From Epilithonimonas zeae (GTDB lineage Bacteria > Bacteroidota > Bacteroidia > Flavobacteriales > Weeksellaceae), in the NCBI RefSeq assembly GCF_900141765.1, contig NZ_FSRK01000003.1, forward strand, positions 248,001 through 312,000: 64,000 nt of DNA, given 5' to 3'. Within the stretch, counting starts at the first letter, position 1; every line of letters begins with the position of its first letter. The notes beneath the pieces were generated by a model that saw nothing but the letters and a program-made list of their open reading frames with translations, searched no databases and had not been told where the DNA came from. Of the stretch, positions 43,698 to 49,774 are shown piece by piece. A program made the position numbers and the translations under genes.

Positions 43698-43722
43698 CGT
43701 CTTTGATTTTTTATTTTAAAAT

Positions 43723-43760
43723 TTCTTCTAAATTTCTTCTAAATTCAAAATATAAATTCG
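43723..43760 (+). promoter_or_regulatory. 11-bp tandem direct repeat and -10 upstream of the response-regulator gene (site 1)
   Basis: TTCTTCTAAAT occurs twice in exact tandem, at 43723-43733 and 43734-43744. A -10-like TAAATTCG (one mismatch to TAnnTTTG) lies at 43753-43760, 8 bases after the second repeat. The ATG follows at 43800. Two half-sites one helical turn apart just upstream of the -10 is how OmpR/PmrA-type regulators bind and activate. The same arrangement recurs at 45824 and 47872. Confidence 0.75.
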
Positions 43761-43799
43761 CTAAATAAAAATCCCGATATTTATAAAATAGAATTACCG

Positions 43800-44477
43800 A
43801 TGAAAATCCTGATTATTGAAGACGAAACAGAATTGGCAAAAAGTGTTGCAGAATATCTTTCTGAGGAAAACTATCTGTGCGAATTTGCCTTCACTTTCTA
43901 TGAAGCGATGTACAAGATTGAGACCTTCCAATATGATTGTATTATTCTGGACATTATGCTTCCAGACGGCAATGGCTTGAAAATTCTGGAAGAACTGAAA
44001 AAGCAAAATAAAGAAGACGGTGTTATTATCGTTTCTGCAAAAAATGCTCTGGACGATAAAATAAAAGGCTTGCAACTTGGTGCAGATGATTATTTGACGA
44101 AACCATTCCATTTATCGGAATTGATGGCTAGAATCTATTCTATAATCAGGAGAAAACAGTTTAATAATTCTAATATTATCAATCAAAATGAATTACAAAT
44201 CGATCTTTTGGCAAAGACTGTTTCAGTCAACAATGAAATAATTGCATTAACAAAAAAAGAGTTTGATTTGCTCATTTATTTTATCGGAAACAAGAACAAA
44301 GTCATATCCAAAAGTACTTTAGCAGAACATCTTTCCGGCGATTTTGCAGATATGCTGGACAATCACGATTTTGTTTATGCCCATGTCAAAAATTTAAAGA
44401 AAAAACTGAATGACGCTGGCTGTGACAAATACTTAAAAACGGTTTATGGAACGGGGTATAAATGGATTTCTAATTAG
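43800..44477 (+). CDS. OmpR-family response regulator
   Basis: A 225-residue two-component response regulator. Receiver domain 1-120 with acidic pair E7/D8, phospho-acceptor D51 (DCIILDIMLPDGNG), the Thr/Ser position filled by Ser in IIVSAKN, and Lys in DDYLTKPF. The C-terminal winged-helix (about 130-225) ends DFVYAHVKNLKKKLNDAGCDKYLKTVYGTGYKWISN, the OmpR/PhoB type. It is followed after 37 bases by its histidine kinase. An 11-bp tandem repeat upstream, shared with two neighbouring promoters, suggests autoregulation and control of the sulfatase-fold and TSUP-PAP2 genes. Confidence 0.95.
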   Translation: MKILIIEDETELAKSVAEYLSEENYLCEFAFTFYEAMYKIETFQYDCIILDIMLPDGNGLKILEELKKQNKEDGVIIVSAKNALDDKIKGLQLGADDYLTKPFHLSELMARIYSIIRRKQFNNSNIINQNELQIDLLAKTVSVNNEIIALTKKEFDLLIYFIGNKNKVISKSTLAEHLSGDFADMLDNHDFVYAHVKNLKKKLNDAGCDKYLKTVYGTGYKWISN

Positions 44478-44514
44478 ATATTAGTTAATTGCCAATTATA
44501 ATTAATTTTATCCT

Positions 44515-45825
44515 TTGGAAAACCTGAAAATCATTATTGACTTGAAACCGCTACTTAGTAAAACCACCAAACCATTCATCATTTATGTCCTGATTATTCT
44601 GGTCATCAGCATACCGGTTTACTATTTTGTGGTAGATGCAATTTGGAAACACGAACTGGATGAACACAATGAGATTGTTGCTGAAAAAACAGCATTCCAA
44701 ATCAATAGCCAGAAATTATCTGACCGGAAACTAGCCGAAACGATAACACTCTGGAACACCATCCAGCCAAGCACAAACATTCAAAATTTAGAACAAAATG
44801 ATGATCTGAAAGACCGGATTTTCATTATCGAAAAAAAACATCAGTTTCTGCATTTTGAAGATATCGACAGGTTCAGGTGTTTATCGAAGATTATTTATCT
44901 CAACAAAAAACCGTATCGTTTCAACATAGAAACCAATATCGAAGAATCTCAGGAAACTATTTTTTTCATCTCCGCAACCACGGTTATTCTCTTCATTCTT
45001 ATTGTCGGCGGATTGTTATTTCTCAACAGAAGACTTTCAAAATCGGTTTGGAAACCTTTTCGTGAGACTTTGGATCAACTGAAAACTTTCAGTCTTAATA
45101 ATCAGACAAAAATTGAATTTCCGCAAACCGATGTCAGTGAATTTGACGAACTGAATCAATCATTAAGCAAGCTGATAGAACATAATGTTTCCGTTTATAA
45201 AACTCAGAAAGAGTTTACAGAAAATGCTTCCCACGAGTTGCAGACACCTTTGGCGATTCTGAAAAACAAACTCGATATTCTTTTGCAAAACGAAGATTTG
45301 ACGGAAAAACAATATCAGATTGCCGAAGAAATGAACCGCGCTTTGTCCAGAAGTTCGAGAATCAATAAAAACCTTTTATTATTAGCAAAAATTGAAAACA
45401 ATCAGTTTGAGAATTCTGAAATACATCTGGACAAATTACTTAATCAAAGCTTGGAAATTCTGCAAGAACATTTTGATCAGAAAAACATTTCCGTTCACAG
45501 CGAAATTTCTTCTGATGTAAAAGTGAATGGAAACATTGGATTAACCGAAGTTTTGATTAATAATTTGATTTTAAACGCTATCCGGCATACTCTGATTAAC
45601 GGTTCGATTTCTATTATATTAAACAATTCTGTGTTCGAAGTTTCCAATTCGGGAACAGAAAAACTCAATCCTGATTTGCTGTTCAAACGGTTTTCCAGAT
45701 TCTCGAAAGATAACAATGGAAGCGGACTCGGACTTGCTATTGTAAAAGAAATCTGCAAATCTCAGAATTGGAAAATCGATTATAAATTTGAAAAAAATCA
45801 TCACTTTTTTTCAGTAATAATTTAA
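44515..45825 (+). CDS. Two-component sensor histidine kinase
   Basis: A 436-residue inner-membrane kinase. Two transmembrane helices (about 20-40 and 149-170) enclose a periplasmic sensor of about 108 residues with no recognised fold. A short linker leads to the HisKA domain with phospho-accepting H240 (FTENASHELQTPLAILKNKLD) and an HATPase_c domain with N box (LINNLILNAIRHT) and G motif (GSGLGLAIVKEI). Residues before H240 show no classic HAMP. The start must be a non-ATG codon near 44515: the frame has no Met before about residue 279, well inside the kinase core. It is partnered with the preceding regulator. Its stop overlaps direct-repeat site 2. Confidence 0.93.
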   Translation: MENLKIIIDLKPLLSKTTKPFIIYVLIILVISIPVYYFVVDAIWKHELDEHNEIVAEKTAFQINSQKLSDRKLAETITLWNTIQPSTNIQNLEQNDDLKDRIFIIEKKHQFLHFEDIDRFRCLSKIIYLNKKPYRFNIETNIEESQETIFFISATTVILFILIVGGLLFLNRRLSKSVWKPFRETLDQLKTFSLNNQTKIEFPQTDVSEFDELNQSLSKLIEHNVSVYKTQKEFTENASHELQTPLAILKNKLDILLQNEDLTEKQYQIAEEMNRALSRSSRINKNLLLLAKIENNQFENSEIHLDKLLNQSLEILQEHFDQKNISVHSEISSDVKVNGNIGLTEVLINNLILNAIRHTLINGSISIILNNSVFEVSNSGTEKLNPDLLFKRFSRFSKDNNGSGLGLAIVKEICKSQNWKIDYKFEKNHHFFSVII

Positions 45826-45860
45826 ATTCTAAATTTCTTCTAAATTAAGTTATTACTTTA
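45824..45860 (+). promoter_or_regulatory. 11-bp tandem direct repeat and -10 upstream of the membrane sulfatase-fold gene (site 2)
   Basis: Second half-site TTCTTCTAAAT (45835-45845) is perfect; the first, AAATTCTAAAT (45824-45834), matches 8 of 11 and overlaps the kinase stop codon. A -10-like TTACTTTA (two mismatches) lies at 45853-45860, 7 bases downstream. ATG at 45884. Confidence 0.7.
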
Positions 45861-45883
45861 CGGTTTTACAAAACGCGTATCCA

Positions 45884-47869
45884 ATGGATCAAAAACATGA
45901 GACTTTAAGGCCTTTTTACAAAATTTCCAACAGCAGGTTTTCTATATTATTTTCAATTTTAAGCTTGTACATTCTGTTTTCGAGTGTCATAAGAATAGTA
46001 TTTCTGATTTGGTCATCCAAAGATCTTGATTTTAATCTGGCAGGTATGTTGCGGGCCTTTTTCACAGGATTCTGCTTCGATTTTGCAGTGGGGGCTCTAT
46101 TTTTACTGCTGTATTCCGTGTATCTTCTTTTTTTTCCAAAAAGATGGATTGGTTCCCGGTTTGATAAAATTTTCACATACGTTTATCTGGCGATTGTTCT
46201 TCTCATTATTTATTTCAGTCTTTTGGCAGAGATTCCTTTCTGGGATGAGTTTGGTGTGAGGTTCAATTTTATTGCGGTTGATTATTTGATTTATACTTAC
46301 GAGGTTGTTTCCAACATCAATGAGTCTTATCCTTTACCGCTCATTATTTTTATATTGGTTGCTTTGATTGTTCTGACGTTTGTTTTCCTTCACAAAAGAA
46401 AAATATTCCAAAAAACATTTTCTGATAAAAGACCGATTTCCAAACGGTTCGCTTTTTTCTCAATGTTAGTTTTTCCGGCTTTAGTACTAAGTCTTATCAT
46501 GAAAAATAAACAAGCAGACTTTACTAACAATTTAGTTTTAAATGAATTAGGTAAGAACGGAACATTCTCATTCTTTGCGGCGTTCAAATCCAATCAACTG
46601 GATTATGAAACTTTTTATCCGAAAATCGATGATAAAGAAGCGTATTCTGTTCTGAAGAAAAATCTTTTGCAGGAAAATCAGACTTACGCTACCAACAAAT
46701 GGGACGATATTTCCAGAACTACGAAATCCGAAAATGAGCAACGCCCGAATGTTATCTTAATTGCGATAGAAAGTTTTAGTGGAGATTTTCTGAAAGCTTT
46801 CGGAAACAAAGATAATCTCACTCCAAATTATGATAAACTGGCTAACGAAAGTATTTTCTTTACCAATCTTTATGCAACCGGGACCAGAACTGTGCGTGGA
46901 ATGGAAGCTTTAACTTTGTCCGTTCCGCCGACTCCGGGGAACAGTATTGTTCGCAGACCTGATAATCAGAATCTATTTTCTGTGGCGACGATTTTTAAAG
47001 AGAAAAATTATCAACCATATTTTATCTACGGTGGTGATGGTTATTTTGATAATATGAATAATTTTTTCGGAGGACAGGGCTTTGATATTGTAGACAGGAA
47101 TCGTGGAAATCCTTTGTCAGACGAAATCAAAACTCAGCGTTTCAATATTCCGGACAACGAAGTGAGTTTTGAAAATGCGTGGGGAATTTGCGATGAAGAC
47201 CTTTACAAACAATCTATAAAATATGCTGATAAAAACAGCAAGCTCAACAAGCCTTTTTTCCAGTTTGTGATGACGACTTCCAATCATAAGCCTTACACTT
47301 TTCCGTCTGGAAAAATCGACCTTCCGCAAGGCGACAGAAATGCGGCGGTAAAATATACCGATTATGCTTTAGGGAAATTTCTGGCTGATGCAAAAACAAA
47401 ACCTTGGTTCAAAAACACTGTGTTCGTCATCGTTGCCGACCATTGTGCGAGCAGCGCCGGAAAGTGGGAAATCAATATCGACAAACACCATATTCCTGCG
47501 ATTATTTACAATCTTCCTCAAAAAGTAGAGAAAATCAATCGTCTGGCTTCTCAGATTGATTTGATGCCTACCTTATTCGGTTATCTCGGCTGGAATTACA
47601 CAACAAGCTTGTACGGAAAAGATATTAATCAGACAAAAATTGGCGATGAACGCGCATTCATAGGAAATTACAGAACTTTGGGAATGTTGAAAGGTAATAT
47701 TTTCACTCAGATTGATGACCGGAAAAAGGTCAAGCAATTTGATGTAAAAAAATCGAATCAATGTTTATCTGAAGTAAAATCTAAAAATCAGCAGTTGATT
47801 TCTGAGACAATTTCCTATTATCAAACTGCGAGTGAAAGATTTAAAAATGGAAAAATGAAGGCGAAATAG
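45884..47869 (+). CDS. LTA synthase/phosphoethanolamine transferase-like membrane sulfatase-fold enzyme
   Basis: A 661-residue protein: five predicted transmembrane helices in the first 210 residues, then an extracytoplasmic sulfatase-superfamily domain (about 285-600). Metal/nucleophile residues are visible: NVILIAIESFSGDFLKAFGN with the first Glu, the threonine nucleophile about T336 in GTRTVRGMEAL (position of LtaS Thr in GKTSD), FYGGDGYFDNMNNFF-like motif, and VIVADHCASSAGKW with Asp-His. Members transfer phosphoglycerol or phosphoethanolamine to lipids or glycans. Gram-negative context and position in a two-component cluster with a PAP2 phosphatase suggest lipid A or glycolipid modification; this is inference. 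Confidence 0.85.
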   Translation: MDQKHETLRPFYKISNSRFSILFSILSLYILFSSVIRIVFLIWSSKDLDFNLAGMLRAFFTGFCFDFAVGALFLLLYSVYLLFFPKRWIGSRFDKIFTYVYLAIVLLIIYFSLLAEIPFWDEFGVRFNFIAVDYLIYTYEVVSNINESYPLPLIIFILVALIVLTFVFLHKRKIFQKTFSDKRPISKRFAFFSMLVFPALVLSLIMKNKQADFTNNLVLNELGKNGTFSFFAAFKSNQLDYETFYPKIDDKEAYSVLKKNLLQENQTYATNKWDDISRTTKSENEQRPNVILIAIESFSGDFLKAFGNKDNLTPNYDKLANESIFFTNLYATGTRTVRGMEALTLSVPPTPGNSIVRRPDNQNLFSVATIFKEKNYQPYFIYGGDGYFDNMNNFFGGQGFDIVDRNRGNPLSDEIKTQRFNIPDNEVSFENAWGICDEDLYKQSIKYADKNSKLNKPFFQFVMTTSNHKPYTFPSGKIDLPQGDRNAAVKYTDYALGKFLADAKTKPWFKNTVFVIVADHCASSAGKWEINIDKHHIPAIIYNLPQKVEKINRLASQIDLMPTLFGYLGWNYTTSLYGKDINQTKIGDERAFIGNYRTLGMLKGNIFTQIDDRKKVKQFDVKKSNQCLSEVKSKNQQLISETISYYQTASERFKNGKMKAK

Positions 47870-47871
47870 TT

Positions 47872-47908
47872 TTCTTCTAAATATCTTCTAAATCAGGTTG
47901 CACCTTTG
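47872..47908 (+). promoter_or_regulatory. 11-bp tandem direct repeat and -10 upstream of the TSUP-PAP2 genes (site 3)
   Basis: TTCTTCTAAAT (47872-47882, perfect) followed without a gap by ATCTTCTAAAT (47883-47893, 10/11). A -10-like CACCTTTG (one mismatch to TAnnTTTG) lies at 47901-47908, 7 bases downstream, the same spacing as site 2. The site starts 2 bases after the sulfatase-fold gene. ATG at 47949. Confidence 0.75.
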
Positions 47909-47948
47909 TAAAGTAAAATTTATGGTGTAACCTTTTTTATTAGTAAAA

Positions 47949-48971
47949 ATGATTGTTGAAGTTGTTCTATTGTTCTTCGGAACCATTTTCGCATTCTGGC
48001 TGAGTGCGATTTGCGGAGGCGGCGCAAGCCTCATTTTAATCCCTATTTTAAATCTTTTATTACCAGCTTCTGTCGTTCCTTTTTCCTTGACAATCGGAAC
48101 ATTTACGAGTTCGGTTTCAAGAATTGCGGTTTTCAAAAAACATATCAACTGGAAGATTTTCTTTTGGTTTGTTCCGTTTTCGATTCCTGCGGTATTGATT
48201 GGCGCTTACCTCATCAAATATATCAATCCGAATTATCTTCAATTGATTGTCGCTTTTTTTCTTATTGCCAATGTTCCTCAACTTTTCAAAAAAGTAAAGA
48301 ATGACGAAACAGATGAAAAAGCGTCTCCGAAATATGTTTTGGCCATCATCGGTTTTCTGGCAGGATTTGTTTCCGGAATTACTGGCGCAATTGGATTATT
48401 ATTTAATCGATTTTATTTGAAATTCGGATTAAAAAAAGAAGAGATTGTTGCGACTCGTGCGGCGAATGAAGTTTTCCTACATCTCATCAAATTGGTGATT
48501 TATATTTCTCTCGGATTGTATTCCAATCTTGCTTTGTGGCTGGGATTGGCGATTGCTGTTGCAACGATTATTTCATCCTATACAGTGAAATATATCCTAC
48601 CTTACCTGAGTGAAAATCTCTTCAGAAAAATTGGTTACGGAGCAATGGTTGTTGCGGGAATCACTTTATTGATAGGAACTTCCGACAAAATCATCCAACA
48701 AGATAAATTGGGCGTTACGATAGCAAAAAGTGAATCGATTATCTCTTGGCGGTCGACAGATTTTGTGATTGAATTTGCGTTTGATGACGGCTTGGAAATC
48801 GAAAGACCTATCCATCCAAAAGAATTACCCAATCATCTTAAAACAAAATATGATTCTCTGAAAGATCATTATGATGTGATTCATCTGGAAAAGGTTTTCA
48901 CTTTCCGAAATGAACCTTCCTACGAATTCTATTGTTACAAAGACAATCAGCTTACCAAATTTGAAAGTTAA
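47949..48971 (+). CDS. TSUP (TauE/SafE) family permease with a C-terminal soluble extension
   Basis: A 340-residue inner-membrane protein with about eight helices and the family repeat motif: the first half shows LSAICGGGASLILIPILNLLLP, the second GFLAGFVSGITGAIGLLFNRF. TSUP proteins export or import sulfite, sulfonates and other organic anions; the substrate here is unknown. After the last helix (about residue 255) an 85-residue charged segment follows (IISWRSTDFVIEFAFDDGLEIERPI...HYDVIHLEKVFTFRNEPSYEFYCYKDN), which is unusual for the family. It is followed after 17 bases by the PAP2 gene, so they form an operon behind direct-repeat site 3. Confidence 0.85.
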   Translation: MIVEVVLLFFGTIFAFWLSAICGGGASLILIPILNLLLPASVVPFSLTIGTFTSSVSRIAVFKKHINWKIFFWFVPFSIPAVLIGAYLIKYINPNYLQLIVAFFLIANVPQLFKKVKNDETDEKASPKYVLAIIGFLAGFVSGITGAIGLLFNRFYLKFGLKKEEIVATRAANEVFLHLIKLVIYISLGLYSNLALWLGLAIAVATIISSYTVKYILPYLSENLFRKIGYGAMVVAGITLLIGTSDKIIQQDKLGVTIAKSESIISWRSTDFVIEFAFDDGLEIERPIHPKELPNHLKTKYDSLKDHYDVIHLEKVFTFRNEPSYEFYCYKDNQLTKFES

Positions 48972-48988
48972 CTTAGAATTTATTATAT

Positions 48989-49774
48989 ATGAAACTAATA
49001 TTCTCAGGCTTATTAATTATTTTATTAAGTTCTCAAAACCTTTTGGCTCAGGACAGTTTAGCTGTAAAAAAAGATTCTATTGACAGTGTTTCTGTTGCGC
49101 ATTTGCCTCTTGACAAAGCCTATCAATTCAATTATAAAAAACTGATTATTCCCGCTGCATTTATAACTTACGGCGTGGCTACTTTGAAGTTTGACAAACT
49201 AAAACAATTGAATTTTTCGACAAGAAGCGAAATCAACGAACATCAGCCTGACCATATTCGACTGGATAATTACACGCAATTTGCTCCTGCCGCTTTGGTT
49301 TATGGCTTGAATGCTTTTGGCGTTGAGGGAAAACATAATTTCCGAGACCGAAGCATCATCTACGGAACATCATTATTATTGGCATCTGCAGTCATAATGC
49401 CGACGAAACATTTAGCAAAAGAAGAAAGACCCGACCAATCGAATCGGCTGTCGTTTCCTTCCGGTCATACGGCTTTTGCATTTGCATCCGCACAGTTTAT
49501 GTATAGAGAATACAAGGATACCAATTTCTGGCTGGGAGTTTCCGGTTATTCTTTGGCGGTTTTCACTGGCGTTTACAGAATGCTGAATGATAAACATTGG
49601 TTCAGTGACGTGGTTGCCGGAGCAGGAATTGGGATTTTGTCGACAGAAGCTTCTTATTGGTTGTATCCAAAAATAAACAAGTTATTATCCGGAAAAAATA
49701 AAAATTCTTCAGTAATGATGATGCCTTTCTATCAGAATAAAACAGCGGGAATTGGATTGGTGAAAAATTTTTGA
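48989..49774 (+). CDS. PAP2-family phosphatase
   Basis: A 261-residue exported or membrane phosphatase with signal peptide (MKLIFSGLLIILLSSQNLLAQ). The three acid-phosphatase motifs are KHLAKEERPDQ (K-x6-RP), SFPSGHTAF (PSGH), and VYRMLNDKHWFSDVVAG (SR-x5-H-x3-D with the first Ser replaced by Tyr). Family members dephosphorylate undecaprenyl pyrophosphate, phosphatidic acid or lipid A. Its operon with a TSUP permease and its shared promoter motif with a sulfatase-fold transferase suggest a role in envelope lipid remodelling. Confidence 0.88.
   Translation: MKLIFSGLLIILLSSQNLLAQDSLAVKKDSIDSVSVAHLPLDKAYQFNYKKLIIPAAFITYGVATLKFDKLKQLNFSTRSEINEHQPDHIRLDNYTQFAPAALVYGLNAFGVEGKHNFRDRSIIYGTSLLLASAVIMPTKHLAKEERPDQSNRLSFPSGHTAFAFASAQFMYREYKDTNFWLGVSGYSLAVFTGVYRMLNDKHWFSDVVAGAGIGILSTEASYWLYPKINKLLSGKNKNSSVMMMPFYQNKTAGIGLVKNF

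Follow-up and report, generated by a model that had tools for sequence, protein, structure and literature searches.

A tandem TTCWAAAT repeat as the probable operator of an OmpR-type regulator with envelope-associated targets in Epilithonimonas zeae and other Bacteroidota

A stretch of 64,000 nucleotides from Epilithonimonas zeae (GCF_900141765.1, contig NZ_FSRK01000003.1; G000:C3:248001-312000; hereafter the window) encodes an OmpR/PhoB-family response regulator, a sensor histidine kinase, a sulfatase-fold membrane enzyme (referred to as LTA in the counts below), a TSUP-family membrane protein and a PAP2-family membrane phosphatase. Three promoters of this gene cluster carry a tandem 11-bp repeat. 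Sequence comparison makes it very probable that these repeats serve as operator for the neighbouring regulator, which would autoregulate and would activate a set of envelope genes that varies between lineages. The argument draws on the sites, their spacing, their phylogenetic co-occurrence with the regulator and the gene content of the loci; binding by the regulator, activation as opposed to repression, the signal and the lipid chemistry are what we infer from these. The three operators are as follows.

43723..43744, forward strand: operator 1, tandem 11-bp repeat 5' of the response regulator gene; 0 mismatches; core TTCTAAAT-TTC-TTCTAAAT at 43726-43744.
45824..45845, forward strand: operator 2, 5' of the sulfatase-fold enzyme gene; 3 mismatches, all in unit 1; 2-base overlap with the kinase stop codon.
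47872..47893, forward strand: operator 3, 5' of the TSUP-PAP2 pair; 1 mismatch.

These coordinates and mismatches (0, 3 and 1) are those given in the original prediction, which also held that the window has no further pair; a scan allowing up to 3 mismatches found none. The window has a GC content of 36% and the 11-bp unit is AT-rich, which might suggest chance or low-complexity sequence, but this explanation can be considered refuted: the expectation is 0.01 tandem repeats per window (mean of shuffled windows), all three sites of the genome are located here, and their placement is conserved across many lineages. In a genome-wide scan, as proposed with the original prediction, the 4,079,566 bases (4 contigs) of the organism's own genome yielded 3 forward matches with up to 3 mismatches, namely the three window promoters, and 0 reverse matches (0 for the reversed control). 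The exact core TTCWAAATNNNTTCWAAAT has a fourth copy in the same genome, within an open reading frame on contig C1; the only exact cores in non-coding DNA are the three window sites, which is consistent with the compact local regulon that had been proposed. Across 40 genomes, the exact core gave 64 matches vs 12 for the reversed control. A Weeksellaceae-trained site matrix (35 different sites, 26 bits) placed the three operators at the top of the window (32.0, 29.6 and 27.7), with the fifth place at 9.0. The fourth place (18.6) overlaps operator 1, shifted 11 bp upstream; a third half-site, albeit a weak one, may thus be present as TATTTTAAAAT at 43712-43722, in register upstream of this operator.

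The sulfatase-fold enzyme has a match in 134 of the 197 genomes of the family, and 8-14 kb were read around the 36 best-scoring places (L064-L099). Together with the window, these provided 89 gene-promoter pairs (regulator, LTA, TSUP and PAP2), in which the core was sought within 300 bp. The unit in most relatives is NNNTTCAAAAT or NNNTTCTAAAT, and the conserved core is thus TTCWAAAT repeated at 11 bp (TTCWAAAT-N3-TTCWAAAT); the tandem repeat originally described is real, but its full 11-mer is not kept in relatives. This comparison of upstream regions across orthologous loci, also proposed at the outset, identified the core with at most 2 mismatches in 51 of the 89 pairs (a raw count, without shuffled control): 17 of 23 for the regulator, 22 of 37 for LTA, 9 of 12 for TSUP and 3 of 17 for PAP2. 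The 38 pairs in which it is absent comprise 14 PAP2, 15 LTA, 6 regulator and 3 TSUP promoters.

Conservation before the regulator gene extends beyond the family. A regulator-alignment scan of named genomes gave 524 loci, the best 80 of which (L136-L215) range across Chryseobacterium, Elizabethkingia, Chitinophaga, Dyadobacter, Runella, Pedobacter and Flavobacterium. An independent set of 61 loci was obtained by removing 25 of 86 loci as Weeksellaceae; the 25 comprise those with a corresponding record title, the untitled L130-L135 and the Flavobacteriaceae-titled L137. Taxon labels of draft and metagenome contigs rest on record titles, which may be wrong. In this non-Weeksellaceae set, a matrix score above 10 was found in the 200 bp 5' of the regulator at 41 of 61 loci, vs 2 of 1220 when shuffled. 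Other genes, at distances of over 3.5 kb, had such a score upstream in 11 of 530 cases, and true targets may be among these. Autoregulation, as originally claimed, is supported by this comparison, since many lineages keep the repeat 5' of the regulator.

The original prediction had placed a -10-like element 7-8 bases behind each repeat. Boxes of the -7 type are present there:

43753..43760, forward strand: -7-like box TAAATTCG, 8 bp downstream of operator 1; transcription predicted to start at ~43765, leader ~35 nt.
45853..45861, forward strand: degenerate -7-like box (4/6), TTACTTTA or TACTTTAC, behind operator 2.
47901..47908, forward strand: -7-like box CACCTTTG, 7 bp downstream of operator 3; transcription predicted to start at ~47913, leader ~36 nt.

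The same spacing recurs across the loci (L130-L135 were excluded from the box-geometry and target counts, L130 being a repeat of L142): the best TAnnTTTG match lies 7-8 bases behind the repeat in 63 of the 68 sites at regulator genes (~5 for shuffled tails) and in 93 of the 116 sites at other genes (~10 for shuffled tails). In Flavobacterium psychrophilum, the TAnnTTTG box occupies -12 to -5 according to passages of PMC9723704. The repeat would thus cover about -44 to -23, a position in which an activator would stand in for the -33 element. Two regulator subunits may bind head to tail, one per TTCWAAAT, directly upstream of the sigma-A type -7 box, and the bound regulator would recruit RNA polymerase in place of the -33 element, as in activation of the PhoB/PmrA type. 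Once phosphorylated, the regulator would raise its own expression and, in this genome, also the expression of the LtaS/MdoB-like enzyme, TSUP and PAP2. In four Flavobacterium loci (L204, L205, L208 and L209), the regulator box is TAAATTGC, nearer to TAnnTTGY, the SM5 box described for F. psychrophilum in passages of PMC9723704, than to TAnnTTTG.

The regulator promoters often share a further property. When the F. psychrophilum box position is applied as a rule, the regulator mRNA has a predicted leader of only -1 to +1 nt in 43 of 68 cases vs 1 of 116 for other genes (rows that may include chance sites, with start codons from a simple open reading frame finder). Some genomes were counted twice (e.g., L072 and L136); merging duplicates reduces the regulator rows from 68 to 65 and the others from 116 to 106, and 42 of the 65 distinct regulator sites are then leaderless by the same rule. 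In named loci with a site scoring above 12, the distance from the first base of the 22-mer to the start codon is 40-43 bases in 42 of 52 cases. The window and its closest relatives, L064-L070, are exceptions to this geometry, with a predicted leader of ~35 nt. Since leaderless transcripts are rare in F. psychrophilum (5.5% of mapped mRNAs, as given in passages of PMC9723704), so constant an arrangement may reflect selection, possibly for synthesis of the regulator via a separate translation route under stress. The phylum Bacteroidota is reported (PMC6847099) to be without Shine-Dalgarno sequences.

The operator and the regulator travel together. A strict pattern (core plus box at 7-8 bp) matched 61 times in the 197 family genomes vs 1 for the reversed control, and a regulator orthologue is within 10 kb of 53 of these matches. 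The pattern is present in 40 of 55 genomes with the regulator vs 4 of 142 without it (Fisher 1e-24, for genomes that are not independent, and with only the best 14 candidates per genome scored), a comparison that supports the original proposal of a local OmpR-type regulator reading an 11-bp-period repeat beside the core promoter. Within the genus there are 23 matches vs 0 for the control, in all 12 regulator-bearing genomes and in G009, which has no regulator. The enzyme promoters show the same tendency, with a site in 21 of 26 rows from regulator-bearing genomes vs 1 of 9 rows from genomes without the regulator (G070 and G029, for which regulator status is not known, are omitted); in the latter genomes, sites are weaker or gone. 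G009, one of the four genomes with the pattern but no regulator, also lacks kinase and TSUP in the locus, between conserved neighbours; its PAP2 promoter retains an intact site, whereas the one before LTA differs from the core at 2 positions. G015, without an intact regulator, has 4 core mismatches in its LTA promoter, and its sister G014 keeps both regulator and site. There are 3 mismatches in G138, where the regulator is missing, but equally many in its sister G176, which has a regulator elsewhere in the genome. In G186, the regulator is on contig C34 and LTA, with its site, on C43, which speaks for action in trans. Where the DNA-reading region is of the LWG type instead of LSG or ISG, a site scoring above 12 before the regulator occurs in 0 of 6 loci vs 52 of 75 others (L130-L133 and L135 excluded). 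The reading helix, DF[VI]YAH[VI]KNLKKKL, changes little down to ~60% overall identity, and sites still adjoin the regulator where gene order varies.

G015 retains a perfect site with leaderless geometry, its only one of the regulator kind, at L135 (G015:C20:24094-24112), with an ATG 42 bases behind the site start that opens a decayed regulator remnant matching approximately the first 87 residues in pieces; no kinase match of note was seen near L135. Two regulator copies each are present in G142 (C5 and C12), both adjoining site-plus-box matches, and in G019 (C6 and C14), with a strict match beside the C14 copy only. A paralogous regulator with 52% identity is encoded at L134 (G186:C34:289692-290354), where such an operator is not present, and at G005:C2:131002-131664.

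A number of observations weigh against the operator reading. The strict pattern is missing from 15 of the 55 family genomes that have the regulator, and in the organism's own genome it catches operator 3 only (a looser pattern catches operators 1 and 3); since operators 1 and 2 escape it, counts based on it are too low. Rows and genomes are related, so that the P values overstate independence. A good site is lacking before the gene itself in 6 of 23 regulator promoters (L064-L099 plus the window) and in 23 of 75 non-LWG named loci, and in the independent set a matrix score above 10 was found in the 200 bp behind the kinase at only 16 of 58 loci. The LTA site is also absent in G008, G176 and the second copy of G020. 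Among the LWG-type loci, L214 scores 10.2 before its regulator gene and L215 has a site of 16.7 before its LTA gene. The strict pattern is present and the regulator absent in G028, G136 and G147, and in G041 and G063 the regulator is kept at 71% identity, yet the LTA promoter has 3 core mismatches. These last five genomes could be accounted for by another transcription factor that reads the sites and controls the same locus by coincidence. We consider this very unlikely in view of the co-occurrence of site and regulator in the 197 genomes, the adjacency of sites to the regulator even with changed gene order, and the LWG-type reading regions without a site before the regulator.

Finally, activation and repression are inseparable by position alone. 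The regulator could act on the same operator as a repressor, blocking polymerase when bound at about -44 to -23, with phosphorylation or its loss relieving the block. The site overlaps the usual -33 region, and the near-consensus -7 boxes that many regulator promoters possess might work unaided. The target promoters, however, often have a weaker box (second position A; first position C, G or T), and the geometry fits activators of the PhoB/PmrA kind; we therefore regard repression as unlikely. In non-regulator targets, the spacer resembles GGTTGCA and the box is often without its first T.

The genes of the cluster were assigned as follows.

43800..44477, forward strand: OmpR/PhoB-family response regulator, 225 aa; Response_reg and Trans_reg_C.
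44515..45825, forward strand: sensor histidine kinase, PorY family (NCBIfam NF052314); HisKA and HATPase_c; TTG start uncertain.
45884..47869, forward strand: LtaS/MdoB-like membrane enzyme with sulfatase fold; Pfam Sulfatase; 3lxq as the closest relative, by sequence, among solved structures.
47949..48971, forward strand: TSUP-family (TauE/SafE) membrane protein; Pfam TauE.
48989..49774, forward strand: PAP2-family membrane phosphatase; Pfam PAP2.

At the family level (Response_reg with Trans_reg_C, HisKA with HATPase_c, Sulfatase, TauE and PAP2), these agree with the original assignments; the suggested phosphoethanolamine transferase is not supported. The regulator exceeds the Pfam cut-offs for both the receiver (94.8 bits) and the winged helix (60.3 bits), and its residues D51 and K101 are invariant in 10 aligned orthologues. 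It is far below the cut-off of the PmrA model (165.8 of 330 bits), as the kinase is for PmrB (79.5 of 314 bits). The kinase would sense an envelope signal via a periplasmic domain that precedes the second membrane helix and for which two helices and four strands are predicted (predicted local distance difference test 86.7; L067, with a stop codon in the stretch, was omitted from the kinase alignment). In the predicted model, this domain resembles PAS/Cache sensors, e.g., those of YycG/WalK and CusS; Foldseek by itself gave no significant match for it.

The kinase scores 419 bits against NF052314 (cut-off 350) and is the only kinase of its genome above the PorY cut-off. It could therefore truly be the type IX secretion sensor PorY, signalling mainly to PorX, with the local regulon as a side branch; a PglZ-domain protein (523-codon frame, G000:C3:328917-329504) is also encoded in the genome, away from the locus. 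However, the neighbouring regulator carries Trans_reg_C and no PglZ domain; all 18 genus genomes examined encode a PglZ protein and 8 of these are without a kinase above the PorY cut-off; and in G005 a better PorY match (503 bits) lies beside a different regulator, the 52%-identity paralogue noted above. The last two findings indicate that the PorY label does not by itself show the kinase to act in type IX secretion, and we judge such a role quite improbable as its main one.

For the sulfatase-fold enzyme, Sulfatase is the only Pfam match over its cut-off. Six NCBIfam models matched at E <=0.001, none of them EptA and none over its cut-off; against the curated LtaS/MdoB equivalog models the enzyme reaches 59.2 of 574, 58.2 of 572 and 45.2 of 970 bits. 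The sequence is also related, more weakly, to lipoteichoic acid synthases (2w8d). The phosphoethanolamine-transferase (EptA) part of the original prediction is not supported: no EptA model was among the matches listed, and the nearest families, MdoB and LtaS, are themselves far below cut-off. The PAP2 protein is likewise far below the cut-off for the lipid A 1-phosphatase LpxE (29.7 of 177 bits). With an enzyme that is LtaS/MdoB-like and not EptA, the analogy to PmrAB-EptA-LpxE that accompanied the prediction is only loosely supported and not established. The PAP2 gene in the window has no site of its own and, given the gene order, is probably read together with TSUP. These enzymes may remodel envelope lipids.

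Targets elsewhere in Bacteroidota point to the envelope as well. Loci L136-L215 contain 73 putative non-regulator targets with a score above 14, counted here as sequence clusters, each named from 1-2 members or from likeness to window proteins: OMP_b-brl_3 outer-membrane barrel (16), PepSY-like (14), LTA (12), PAP2 (10), DUF347 (4), TSUP (3), OEP efflux (2), HD domain (2) and Omp85 with DUF5982 (2). The LTA sites are found in six Flavobacterium loci (three of them close kin), one Pedobacter locus and one Chitinophagaceae metagenome contig, in addition to Weeksellaceae; thus, beyond the group used for training, both this enzyme and PAP2 are again among the targets. In one Flavobacterium locus (L203), a diacylglycerol kinase gene is 201 bases behind the site. 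It would appear that operator and DNA-reading helix have been kept across many Bacteroidota, with targets exchanged between lineages and the recurrent ones mostly envelope proteins.

No description of this particular switch was found in the literature, although the general type is known. PmrAB (BasRS) is similar in regulator architecture, in the 11-bp period of its direct repeat and in having EptA, a sulfatase-fold envelope enzyme, among its targets. It differs in the sequence of the repeat, which is not TTCWAAAT, and the regulator and kinase described here fall below the PmrA/PmrB cut-offs, with an enzyme that is LtaS/MdoB-like. A flavobacterial system is available for comparison in Riemerella anatipestifer, which is placed in Weeksellaceae. 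Its PhoPR has a mapped autoregulatory site, as described in passages of PMC9603813, but the PhoP motif has TTTAACA as its most conserved part and 583 peaks by DNA affinity purification sequencing (PMC9603813), unlike the TTCWAAAT repeats and very few sites found here. PorXY of Porphyromonas gingivalis is related through the kinase, which passes NCBI's PorY family cut-off; unlike the DNA-binding OmpR-type regulator that adjoins the kinase here, PorX has a PglZ domain, is encoded apart from porY and is associated with the pattern ATT-N8-AAT, according to passages of PMC4800418 and PMC8050853. By analogy, the regulon would work most like ColRS of Pseudomonas, for which passages of PMC2689224 describe an OmpR-family regulator with mostly membrane targets, including a PAP2 enzyme encoded beside its genes and a diacylglycerol kinase, and a ColR site of two direct repeats, one poorly conserved. 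The ColR consensus, (T/C)(T/C)NA(C/G)NN(T/C)TTTTT(C/G)AC (PMC2689224), differs by eye from the present core, ColR is said in the same source not to autoregulate whereas the regulator promoter is here a recurrent site, and phylum and promoter type are also different.

A broader proposal, which we hold with even odds for and against, is that a PorY-family kinase and an OmpR-type regulator form a core envelope regulon of Bacteroidota, in which the operator is kept, targets are exchanged, and the regulator mRNA is mostly leaderless, with operator, -7 box and start codon in one block of ~42 bp. As a corollary, the ancestors of PorY kinases may have been partners of OmpR-type regulators. If true, this would provide an operator for an envelope two-component system in environmental, plant, animal and clinical genera of Bacteroidota; the regulon could be read from genomes of the group via a specific pattern; the LtaS/MdoB-like enzyme, PAP2 phosphatases, TSUP, PepSY-like and outer-membrane proteins would belong to one response; and the conserved leaderless mRNA of the regulator would be a natural test of translation start in Bacteroidota.

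Two minor features concern the TSUP gene. Its product has ~100 C-terminal residues past the TauE domain, which ends at residue 239 of 340. The -7 box of its promoter lies within an inverted repeat (AGGTTGCACC / GGTGTAACCT) with a T run behind it, at 47895-47941 (RNA fold z -3.7). A script recovered this hairpin from 10 of 12 aligned sequences, the window included, and not from L141 and L152; L141 pairs by eye, and L073 has paired changes. Because the left arm is upstream of the predicted TSUP start, the hairpin could stop read-through from upstream while sparing the transcript of TSUP itself.

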